From the NCBI GenBank assembly GCA_024643795.1, contig JAHEMF010000005.1:11089-56828 (forward strand): a DNA stretch of 45,740 nt. The letters run 5' to 3'. Below the pieces are notes generated by a model. It searched no databases. It was not told the origin of the DNA and was given only the letters and a program-made list of their open reading frames with translations. Below, piece by piece: positions 2,549 through 7,965 of this stretch (the stretch's first letter is position 1; every line of letters starts with the position of its first letter). Made by a program: the position numbers and the translations under genes. The stretch is from Bacteroidota bacterium (GTDB lineage: Bacteria > Bacteroidota > Bacteroidia > AKYH767-A > OLB10).

Positions 2549-3136
2549 TTACTTCAGCACGAACTTCACTGGCAGGTTCATCTTTACATTGACCCTGTTG
2601 CCTTTATGATATCCCGGTTTCCAACGGGGCATGTTATTTATAACCCGTATAGCTTCTTCGTCGCAACCATGTCCAACGCTGCGTATTATTTTAGCTTTGG
2701 TAACAACGCCATTGGTGTCTATTATGTAGCTGACGAAAACTGTACCACCAACCCCACCTTTTAATGCCTCTGACGGATATTTGCTCTCTTTTTGCAAATA
2801 TTTTAGAAGTGCACTTTCGCCACCGGGAAACTCAGGCATTTTTTCTACAACAAAATAAATTTCTTCGGTATACATCACCTTTCCACTGTTCAGTTTCATG
2901 GTAACAGTTTGTTTTACCGGTTTTACATTTTCGCTTAATTGTACCGGTTCTTCTTTTTCGCCGTAGTAAACAGTGTCAATTACTCCACAACTCTCCATGA
3001 ATTTATTCAGAGCTGTTGAATCGCCTTCCCAGGCCTCGCGTGAACATATGGCGCAGAATTCGTCCTGAGCATAGCAGAAGTTACAACTGATCGACAGAAC
3101 TAAAAATGATAAAACAGCTATTGTTTTGAGTTTCAT
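2549..3136 (-). CDS. Exported protein with TonB C-terminal domain
   Basis: This 195-residue protein has an N-terminal signal sequence (about residues 1-23, ending CYAQ), a Cys-containing linker (FCAICS, and ESC further on), and a C-terminal domain of about 90 residues typical of TonB. The diagnostic segments are MPEFPGGESALLKYLQKE, YPSEALKGGVGGTVFVSYII and GCDEEAIRVINNMPRWKPG. Unlike a classical TonB it has no proline-rich periplasm-spanning region, and its hydrophobic N-terminus looks cleavable, so it is probably periplasmic and not an energy transducer. Stand-alone TonB-C domains of this type are common in Bacteroidota and their role is poorly known. It follows tryptophanase on the same strand after 148 nt, so co-transcription is possible but not shown. 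Confidence 0.75.
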   Translation of the reverse strand: MKLKTIAVLSFLVLSISCNFCYAQDEFCAICSREAWEGDSTALNKFMESCGVIDTVYYGEKEEPVQLSENVKPVKQTVTMKLNSGKVMYTEEIYFVVEKMPEFPGGESALLKYLQKESKYPSEALKGGVGGTVFVSYIIDTNGVVTKAKIIRSVGHGCDEEAIRVINNMPRWKPGYHKGNRVNVKMNLPVKFVLK

Positions 3137-4909: not shown

Positions 4910-5407
4910 ATGAAAACAACAGAAATAATCCTATCTACCTTGCTTGCGGCGTCTTTGATAGGCACGTATATATTTTATCGGGAAGCAGAAGAGTGCAAAT
5001 CCAGTTTAGCAGTCCCGCCTACTGAGCCTGTTTGTCCAGAGATCAAAGGTTATGCAGGCCCATTATTAATTGATAGTGCAGCAGCAAGGTCCTGTATAAA
5101 TCAATATAAGGCGTTTATTGATTCCAGGTTGTCAGATGAAAAAAATAATGGAAGATATGGTGGTGTTATAAGCGGAGCTGCAATAGATTCGATTTTCAAG
5201 GTGAGTGGAACCAATGGGTTGGGATTTTATTTAGCTATTGATACTACCGGAGAATTTAAAAAAGATAAATCAATCTTTGTGGTATTTGGCGGTCAAAAAT
5301 CCACTCTTGATGCTGACGGAATTTTTAAAACAGAAGAGTCAGGGTCTAAATTATATGAAAATAACAACTGGTGTCCTCCTGATTGTGCGGAGTTCAAGTA
5401 TTATTGA
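4910..5407 (+). CDS. Small secreted or anchored protein, NWCPPxC family, first of a tandem pair
   Basis: A 165-residue protein that I do not recognise. The N-terminus (about residues 4-22) is one hydrophobic segment, either an uncleaved anchor or a signal peptide, so the rest is expected outside the cytoplasm. It aligns along its length with the next gene. Shared features are CPEI near residue 43, a DSxAxxC segment, GG(V/I)ISGxA, GTNGxxxxLAID, a VF strand, a DxDGxF/DSEGK turn and the C-terminal NNWCPPDC. Four conserved cysteines suggest two disulfides in a periplasmic or exported fold. No lipobox, T9SS signal or enzyme motif is visible. The ATG has no Shine-Dalgarno sequence, as is usual here. 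It diverges from tnaA across 227 nt. Confidence 0.78.
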   Translation: MKTTEIILSTLLAASLIGTYIFYREAEECKSSLAVPPTEPVCPEIKGYAGPLLIDSAAARSCINQYKAFIDSRLSDEKNNGRYGGVISGAAIDSIFKVSGTNGLGFYLAIDTTGEFKKDKSIFVVFGGQKSTLDADGIFKTEESGSKLYENNNWCPPDCAEFKYY

Positions 5408-5455
5408 ATCTTAATTATACATTAATATTAGACTAAACCTTAAAATTATTATCCT

Positions 5456-5902
5456 ATGAAAACAAAATCACTTTTGGCCTTATTTTTGGCTCTTTCAGTA
5501 TCAGTTAATGTGATAGTATTTTTATCATCATTCACCCCACAGTCTGGAGAATGTCCTGAGATCCCAAGTTATTCTAATGGTATTGAGTTGAGCGATAGTA
5601 AGGCCCAAGATTGTGCAGAAGCTTATCGTAATTCTGTACCTGGTAATGCCATAACTGGTGGGATAATTTCTGGCAATGCCTTAAAGGAGTTGTTTTGTGC
5701 TCCCGGAACAAATGGTATTGCATACAGTCTTGCAATAGATCCCGAAAAGCAAATAGGTGGCGATGATGCAGTATTTGTTATCCTTACAGGTATAGAAGTA
5801 ACTATGGATTCTGAAGGTAAGATTGAGTCAACCAGACGAACAGGAACAAAAGCATATCGTACCAACAATTGGTGTCCTCCAAACTGCGTAAACTATAAAT
5901 AA
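5456..5902 (+). CDS. Small secreted protein, NWCPPxC family, second of a tandem pair
   Basis: This 148-residue paralogue starts 48 nt after the previous gene. It has a signal-like hydrophobic N-terminus (residues 5-26), then CPEIPSY, LSDSKAQDC, GGIISGNALKELF, GTNGIAYSLAID, VFVILTG, MDSEGKIES and the C-terminal TNNWCPPNCVNYK. The four cysteines and the NWCPPxC tail match its neighbour, while the intervening loops differ in length and sequence, so the duplication is not recent. The pattern of alternating short strands with a conserved GTNG turn suggests a compact beta-rich domain; this is inference. A 13-bp inverted repeat follows its stop codon. The TPR histidine kinase downstream on the same strand is a possible functional partner. 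No function is assigned. Confidence 0.78.
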   Translation: MKTKSLLALFLALSVSVNVIVFLSSFTPQSGECPEIPSYSNGIELSDSKAQDCAEAYRNSVPGNAITGGIISGNALKELFCAPGTNGIAYSLAIDPEKQIGGDDAVFVILTGIEVTMDSEGKIESTRRTGTKAYRTNNWCPPNCVNYK

Positions 5903-5922: not shown

Positions 5923-5961
5923 AAACCTGTTGATGTATTACCAAATTGCATCAACAGGTTT
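5923..5961 (+). terminator. 13-bp inverted repeat between the small secreted genes and the kinase
   Basis: AAACCTGTTGATG (5923-5935) pairs perfectly with CATCAACAGGTTT (5949-5961) around a 13-nt loop. It lies 21 nt after one stop codon and 25 nt before the next start codon. The U-tract after the stem is weak (TAATTCATTTT), so it could be a terminator, an mRNA-stabilising 3' hairpin or an operator. The stem is certain; the role is not. Confidence 0.5.
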
Positions 5962-5985: not shown

Positions 5986-7965
5986 ATGCTTCCATTCAGA
6001 TATTACCGGTTTGTGATCATAGCAGTGATGCTTTCAGTTACGGCTAGGAACACTTATGCACAATCTGGCACATTGAACGACAGCATATCTGCGGTGCTCA
6101 ACAGTAAGATCTCTGATAGTGATTTTCATGTAGATCGTCTTAACGAGATGATATTTAAGCAATGGGAAATGGGTTTGACCAATGAAGAGCTCGTTTATCA
6201 GGCAAAGCAGGTCCTTGAGATCGCACGAAGCTCCGGTTATAAAAAAGGAGAAGCAGATGCGCTCACCAATCTTGTAAGACTACATTTAAATCAGTATCAG
6301 CTTTCTATTGCACTTGAGAACGCAATGGACGCGATCACGATCTATGAAGGGCTTGGTGATGTGGAAAAGATCGGTTATAACCAGATGCAGATGGGAGTGA
6401 TCTATTATGTAAATCAGGATTATGCAAAGTCTCAGCAGTTTTATAACCTCGCCATTAAAAGCCTTGATAGTGTTGGAGACTCTGAAAGGGTTTCAACCCT
6501 TTATTATTTGTCCGGATTAAATTATTCTAACCTAAAGTCATTTGAGTTAGCAAGGGAAAATTTCAGGATAGCTCTTGCAAGGGTTACACAATTGAAAAAT
6601 AGCAACCGGCTGTCTGAAATATTGACAGGAATGGCCGAGCTGTTCATTGAGATGGCTGAGGCCGACAGTGCTGTCGCTGTTTTGGAGCAACTTCATACGT
6701 TAAAACCTGAGGACCAGCTCGACTATGGTTTATGCAAGGTATACATCATAGAATCAAAGATCTATTTACTAAAGAAAGACAAAGAAAAGTCTTTGGCTTC
6801 AGCAAAGCGGGCACTTGAGGTTGCCGAAATAGTGGATGCCAGTAAGTTGAAGATAGAAGCATATAAAGCTATGTCGGATGCTACTGCAGCAAACAATAGT
6901 TTTAAGGACGCGTTCGATTGGCGTAATAAAGAGATAGCTCTTGATGATAGTTTGTTTAATGAAAAAAATACACAACGCATTAGTCAGTTGGAAGCTGCAT
7001 TCAAGATCCAAAAGACCGAAAATCAACTATCAATACTTGAAAGGGAAAACAGAATACGAGAGTTGTTACTAAAAGGGTCAATTGCCATTACTGCATTGGT
7101 ATTGATCTTATCTTTTGTTTTGTATAACCGTTTCAAGATCAAGCGAGATGCGAATAAAGAATTATCAGACGCATATAATAAGTTGAATGCCACCCAGGAA
7201 CAACTTGTACATCATAAAAAAATGGCATCGTTAGGCCAGTTTGCATCAGGAATTGCTCATGAGATACAAAATCCCCTGAACTTTGTGAATAATTTTGCTG
7301 AAATGAATTCTGAACTTATCAGTGATCTGAAAGAAGATTCAGGTAACTCATCTGCCGAGGCATTGCTGAAAGAGATATCGGTCAATAATGATAAGATATT
7401 CCTGCATGGAAAGCGGGCGCAGGCTATTGTAAAGAATCTTCAGGATCATAGTAATTTGAAAGGCATGAATTTTCAACTTGTTAATGTAAATTCTTTACTT
7501 GATGACACAATTGATCAAACTTATTCTGCCTTTCAAAACACTTACAATGATTTCGAATGCGTGATCGTACGCGATTTCAACCGTGCGCTGCCTCAAGTTG
7601 AGATCTTACCGGTACAGGTAGCAAAAGTTCTTCAGAACATCTTGTCAAATGCCATGTATGCTGTGAAAGAGAAAAGTAAATCTCAAATAACAGGCTACGT
7701 ACCTGAATTAATTGTCCGTACAGATGAGATCAATGATAATGTGGTGATAATAATCAGAGACAACGGTATGGGGATGGATCCTGTTACAAAAGAAAGAGCA
7801 TTTGAGCCGTTTTTTACTAACAAACCCAACAGCACAGGGTTGGGATTATCGCTCAGCTATGATATTATCACGGCTCATCAGGGTAAGATCTCTGTTGAAT
7901 CAGAGCCTGGCGATTTCACTGAATTTATTATCGAGATCCCGGAGGGTTCGCAATCACTTGCCTGA
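5986..7965 (+). CDS. TPR-containing membrane sensor histidine kinase
   Basis: A 659-residue orphan sensor kinase. A signal peptide (about 1-26, ending TYAQ) leads to a predicted periplasmic helical region with TPR-like repeats (about 60-330), a short coiled coil, one membrane helix (about 365-384), a second coiled coil and a cytoplasmic kinase core. His425 lies in the H-box GIAHEIQNPLNF. The N-box is LQNILSNAMYAV (about 549), G1 is DNGMGMD (about 592) and G2 is GLGLSLSYD (about 618). All catalytic boxes are intact. This TPR plus kinase layout is common in Bacteroidota. No response regulator is adjacent: the next gene converges from the other strand 11 nt away. Its upstream neighbours are the two small secreted proteins, which makes them candidate ligands or targets, by position only. 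Confidence 0.88.
   Translation: MLPFRYYRFVIIAVMLSVTARNTYAQSGTLNDSISAVLNSKISDSDFHVDRLNEMIFKQWEMGLTNEELVYQAKQVLEIARSSGYKKGEADALTNLVRLHLNQYQLSIALENAMDAITIYEGLGDVEKIGYNQMQMGVIYYVNQDYAKSQQFYNLAIKSLDSVGDSERVSTLYYLSGLNYSNLKSFELARENFRIALARVTQLKNSNRLSEILTGMAELFIEMAEADSAVAVLEQLHTLKPEDQLDYGLCKVYIIESKIYLLKKDKEKSLASAKRALEVAEIVDASKLKIEAYKAMSDATAANNSFKDAFDWRNKEIALDDSLFNEKNTQRISQLEAAFKIQKTENQLSILERENRIRELLLKGSIAITALVLILSFVLYNRFKIKRDANKELSDAYNKLNATQEQLVHHKKMASLGQFASGIAHEIQNPLNFVNNFAEMNSELISDLKEDSGNSSAEALLKEISVNNDKIFLHGKRAQAIVKNLQDHSNLKGMNFQLVNVNSLLDDTIDQTYSAFQNTYNDFECVIVRDFNRALPQVEILPVQVAKVLQNILSNAMYAVKEKSKSQITGYVPELIVRTDEINDNVVIIIRDNGMGMDPVTKERAFEPFFTNKPNSTGLGLSLSYDIITAHQGKISVESEPGDFTEFIIEIPEGSQSLA

Follow-up and report, generated by a model that had tools for sequence, protein, structure and literature searches.

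The window, a 45,740-nucleotide stretch of a Bacteroidota bacterium contig, carries two adjacent genes for small, related proteins, followed by a hairpin and a gene for a sensor histidine kinase (Table 1). Both proteins contain a domain of a family of ~100 aa that we label FAM, defined by a GG turn, a GCxGIRxY or GTNGxxxx turn with its strand, a LVxVGxD strand and a C-terminal CPxxC. The initial annotation described the genes as tandem secreted paralogues, and the paralogy is borne out: the two open reading frames are 48 bp apart, and their products share 35% identity across 128 aa (BLASTP), a likeness that does not arise by chance given its E-value of 5e-29. Cysteines are at residues 29, 42, 62, 155 and 159 of copy 1 and at 33, 53, 81, 140 and 144 of copy 2; four pairs align (42/33, 62/53, 155/140 and 159/144), as had been noted. 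The motifs GG-V/I-ISG, GTNG, LAID and NWCPP[DN]C were likewise found in both copies. An extracytoplasmic location is probable, but because both copies begin with a hydrophobic segment, "secreted" is better replaced by membrane-anchored or exported, as predicted. A profile search of the window genome (G000; 2.88 Mb, 99.8% complete) found no third copy.

Table 1. Features at the FAM locus, in window coordinates
Feature	Position	Strand	Description
Small protein	2549-3136	-	Export-like N-terminus, TonB C-terminal domain (1.8e-18); opposite strand, close to the FAM pair
FAM copy 1	4910..5407	+	165 aa; N-terminal hydrophobic anchor (residues 4-22), linker, FAM domain (residues ~44-163) ending NNWCPPDCAEFKYY; no Pfam or NCBIfam match
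FAM copy 2	5456..5902	+	148 aa; hydrophobic N-terminal segment (residues 6-24); FAM domain ending NNWCPPNCVNYK; no Pfam or NCBIfam match
Hairpin between FAM copy 2 and kinase	5923..5961	+	15-bp stem, 9-nt loop, then AATTCATTTT
Sensor histidine kinase	5986..7965	+	659 aa; TPR region, one TM (361-379), HisKA, HATPase_c

The kinase gene starts 83 bp downstream of FAM copy 2. Its product has an export-signal-like segment at the N-terminus (judged by eye) and matches HATPase_c (1.6e-18, 67.6 bits against a cut-off of 26.4) and TPR_12 (4e-10) in Pfam. HisKA falls just under its cut-off (1.5e-5, 25.4 bits against 26.9); in a FAM-linked relative of this kinase at another locus (L056), HisKA passes at 31.6. 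We propose this sensor histidine kinase as the partner of the FAM proteins. Predicted topology places the anchored FAM domains and the TPR region on the same side of the membrane. No response regulator gene adjoins the kinase, and no gene for the 7-TM protein described below was found at the window locus or, in a search run without a positive control, in the whole window genome. The intervening hairpin is stable (-21.1 kcal/mol for 56 nt, z -7.6) and, as judged from its sequence, could be terminator-like or attenuator-like.

The initial annotation recognised no known family in the pair, and our searches agree. When 69 members were scanned singly against Pfam, no convincing match appeared, only two stray single hits; NCBIfam and PADLOC returned nothing at curated cut-offs for the members submitted, and tblastn with one canonical FAM member found no match in plasmids or phages. 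A survey of an open library of published literature yielded no description of FAM or of its gene order, and the passages of the Lipocone paper (PMC12419801) that contain the searched terms do not describe the FAM system. Homologues do occur in other genomes, so the absence of relatives outside this genome, which would have counted against the initial annotation, is not what was found.

Genome searches for these homologues covered Bacteroidota. With a single window protein as query, matches appeared in only two other genomes among 149, and a four-sequence profile (A1) brought in more distant relatives within the same order. Taken alone, these single-protein and four-row searches made the family look rare and nearly an orphan (3 of 149 genomes, one locus among the genome contigs), a picture that wider profiles overturned. 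FAM is present in 99 of 395 sampled Bacteroidia genomes (profiles A3 and A5) and in 51 of 395 genomes drawn phylum-wide, six of the 51 lying outside the class Bacteroidia. Since the profiles were widened step by step, homology was tested with two sets that have no sequence in common. In this test, hhalign aligned A1, the window subfamily, with A4, a set of 15 canonical members, from the first helix to the last cysteine pair (probability 97.9, E 3.4e-13). Profile A5, which itself includes both window copies, recovers them at 3.4e-16 and 3.8e-16. The family is thus phylum-wide, and the window pair forms a divergent, membrane-anchored branch of it, a point missing from the initial annotation.

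Canonical FAM members are ~104 aa long and mostly lack an export signal; they are mostly predicted to be cytosolic. Their pattern reads GG-x-F-x-K, GCxGIRxYYG and LVLVGVDxxGND, with CPPxCxxxSxLNS at the end. The CPxxC pair is the most constant feature of the family, held by 68 of 80 members. The motif conservation first noticed in the window pair is therefore partly a family trait: CP..C, the GG turn and the GTNG turn (GCxGIR in canonical members) occupy corresponding family positions, whereas ISG, LAID and the NW that precedes CPP are largely restricted to the window branch. The tail varies with the partner, in that 7TM-linked members mostly end in CPxxCxxxsxLNS and TPR-linked members do not. 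Two members are longer: one has two FAM-like domains in a single protein (L065:8189-8887, minus strand) and one a long N-terminal part ahead of the FAM domain (L067:8052-8897).

The structure of a canonical member was modelled with high confidence from 69 sequences (pLDDT 92.8, pTM 0.76), the tail included, as a helix, a short strand, a helix, two long strands and a short strand; the window protein model, from 17 sequences, reached a pLDDT of 75.7. A Foldseek search of the PDB with the canonical model gave nothing below E 0.001, the best VIA-align Z was 3.4, a viral fold library gave nothing below 0.001, and HMM searches with the FAM and 7-TM profiles found no match among PDB sequences. FAM has a confidently modelled fold for which the tools used know no close solved relative, which does not by itself prove a new fold. 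Two candidate relationships were set aside. Weak PAS/LOV-like Foldseek hits to the window model (best E 0.2) were not convincingly repeated with the better model, and a likeness to the copper protein CopG (Z 3.3 over 51 residues) did not stand above other rows.

Genes in up to 18 kb around 75 loci were labelled by profile. Phylum-wide, the recurrent order is FAM, a ~7-TM protein of ~215 aa, a HisKA_3 kinase without a large sensor domain and a LuxR-type response regulator (domains by Pfam). A linked kinase, which the initial annotation had suggested looking for in the neighbourhood, is thus a property of the family as well as of the window: for 70 of 80 FAM ORFs, a histidine kinase gene lies no more than three genes away. 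Within the same loci, kinases account for 73 of 439 genes within three of FAM and for 9 of 596 genes at least five away (Fisher p 6.5e-20); the corresponding counts for response regulators are 67 and 16 (p 1.3e-13) and for the 7-TM protein 62 and 1 (p 2.2e-23). These p-values serve only as a guide, as the loci share ancestry to differing extents. Because FAM neighbours supplied the sequences for the 7-TM profile, part of its count near FAM is expected by design; the scarcity of hits further away is not. At two loci (L068 and L153) the order is FAM-7TM-FAM-7TM-HK, with FAM and 7-TM genes duplicated as units ahead of one kinase gene. In some loci (L058, L061, L064) the kinase comes first and FAM follows downstream, and a few loci have unrelated neighbours. 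Elsewhere, a single FAM gene accompanies two or three 7-TM genes (L071, L073). A FAM pair beside a gene for a 1251-aa kinase that is not a TPR kinase (L055:8301-9524) may represent a third kind of kinase partner.

The 7-TM protein is as anonymous as FAM in the databases searched: 39 members gave no Pfam family except for one weak single hit, and NCBIfam gave no convincing match. In the alignment (A6) of one member (L070:9622-10269) and its 38 relatives, N..H..E falls in one helix and FW...G...Y in another, and no conserved column holds a cysteine.

The association with TPR kinases is also seen from the kinase side. FAM adjoins 9 of the 12 best full-length relatives of the window kinase, often as tandem pairs, and this route reached FAM loci that earlier FAM searches had missed (L165, a tandem pair, and L166). 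The other three relatives (L163, L164, L180) have no FAM neighbour, so such TPR kinases can do without FAM. FAM-linked TPR kinases form one group (tree support 89/91; 0 of 500 label shuffles as low). The FAM tree, which comes from a short alignment and leaves many forks open, splits by partner with support of 98/97, placing 13 TPR-kinase-linked and 2 other copies on one side and 62 others, nearly all 7-TM-linked, on the other. The two exceptions on the window side are a 7TM-linked copy (L080) and a copy of unknown partner (L054). At the window locus, at L059 and at L165, the two copies of the tandem pair cluster together in the FAM tree, a pattern suggesting that local duplication has happened more than once; two of these three groupings are weakly supported.

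Gaps between genes bear on how FAM is expressed. Of 34 FAM-7TM gaps of at least 25 nt, 13 contain a terminator-like hairpin, compared with 1 of 17 7TM-HK gaps and none of 10 HK-RR gaps; unrelated same-strand gene pairs in the same loci show such hairpins too (58 of 342). The median gap is 3 among kinase, regulator and 7-TM genes, which are closely packed, and 50 for FAM, which is spaced more loosely. It follows from the hairpin counts at the gaps between FAM and the next gene that FAM is probably transcribed partly apart from its signalling neighbours, perhaps more strongly. This arrangement, together with adjacency to the kinase, also fits FAM as a target of the kinase: a product under the control of the adjacent two-component system, such as an envelope stress or cell-surface protein, that has no role in sensing. 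We regard such an output role as unlikely. FAM usually lies upstream of the 7-TM, kinase and regulator genes on the same strand, and it duplicates together with the 7-TM protein, as a part of the system would be better expected to do; a common surface function would ill suit a family whose members are mostly predicted to be cytosolic.

On balance, and with somewhat better than even confidence, we favour a role for the window FAM pair as extracytoplasmic, membrane-anchored accessory subunits, or co-sensors, of the kinase encoded directly downstream. FAM proteins in general probably belong to a bacterial signalling system as components so far overlooked, and the functional unit resembles a two-component system more than it does a free protein that binds a ligand. 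Both copies would be exported and held at the membrane by their predicted N-terminal segments. The FAM domain, in which the C-terminal CPPxC closes a small helix-helix-strand fold, would bind or sense something, possibly through a redox-active or metal-bound cysteine pair. TPR regions are common docking modules for proteins or peptides, and the FAM domain may contact the extracytoplasmic TPR region of the kinase. Contact would alter kinase activity and, in turn, a response regulator encoded elsewhere; in this chain, family membership, gene linkage and the kinase clade are shown, and physical contact, the direction of signalling and a ligand are what we infer. The hairpin between copy 2 and the kinase suggests a separate, probably more abundant FAM transcript unit. 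In the canonical branch, the same domain would act with the 7-TM membrane protein and a kinase lacking a large sensor domain, and because of this second pairing FAM could be a module for sensing or modulation that two kinds of kinase have in common. Since most canonical members lack an export signal, one mechanism must span both compartments or else differ between the branches.

In a chemical version of the co-sensor reading, the CPxxC pair itself would be the active element, and its oxidation or metal loading in the periplasm would set the state of the kinase. The constancy of the pair across the family speaks for this idea, and thioredoxin-like and metal-binding CXXC proteins also have a Cys-Pro-containing cysteine pair. 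Nevertheless, we consider it very unlikely. The FAM pair is CX3C, not CX2C as in thioredoxins, and stands at the C-terminus; one or both cysteines are missing in several 7-TM- and HK-linked members (L081, L083, L133, L134, L145); and no fold match to thioredoxin-like or metal-binding proteins rose above background.

Alternatively, FAM could be the precursor or signal of a cell-cell signalling system, as in agr quorum sensing (AgrB/D/C/A). The 7-TM protein of the canonical order would process or export FAM for detection by the kinase; window-branch FAM would rely on its own N-terminal segment for export, and its reader would be the TPR kinase. TPR receptors elsewhere read peptides. The canonical operon of a small product, a multi-TM protein, a kinase and a LuxR-type regulator resembles agrD/B/C/A in composition, and the paired duplication of FAM and 7-TM genes, the hairpins that suggest separate transcription units and the partner-dependent tail are all consistent with a signal. 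We nonetheless judge this improbable. Conservation extends over the full ~104 aa, and the model shows a single ordered domain that takes in the tail, which is unlike a short precursor with a leader and a variable peptide core. Pheromones that set specificity usually vary, whereas the tail is among the most conserved parts of FAM. The cysteine-free conserved columns of the 7-TM alignment offer no catalytic cysteine for an AgrB-like membrane cysteine protease. Finally, the window branch comes without a 7-TM protein, the search of the window genome, run without a positive control, found no relative of it, and agr belongs to another phylum. We also judge improbable the proposal that FAM, the 7-TM protein and the kinase and regulator form an undescribed phylum-wide Bacteroidota system. 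In it, FAM, with a new fold, or else its CPPxC tail, would itself carry a signal between cells or a message across the membrane, and the window pair would be the form that a TPR kinase reads.

Roughly one in four of the Bacteroidia genomes sampled has at least one FAM copy, and both FAM and its 7-TM partner are unnamed in Pfam and NCBIfam. If FAM is a kinase partner, it offers a handle on what many orphan Bacteroidota two-component systems sense, and its association with two kinds of kinase permits a direct comparison between them. With a confidently modelled fold and no closely related solved structure, it is also a good structural target. The window kinase belongs to the TPR sensor histidine kinases of Bacteroidota (TPR, TM, HisKA, HATPase_c), and FAM genes adjoin only one clade among those compared. 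CpxP, YycH/YycI and LuxP are accessory proteins of histidine kinases. Like window FAM, each is a small extracytoplasmic protein encoded with a membrane histidine kinase and thought to act on it. We found no sequence or fold relation between these proteins and FAM, and the FAM domain differs from them in being found, too, in proteins that lack an export signal and are linked to a 7-TM protein.
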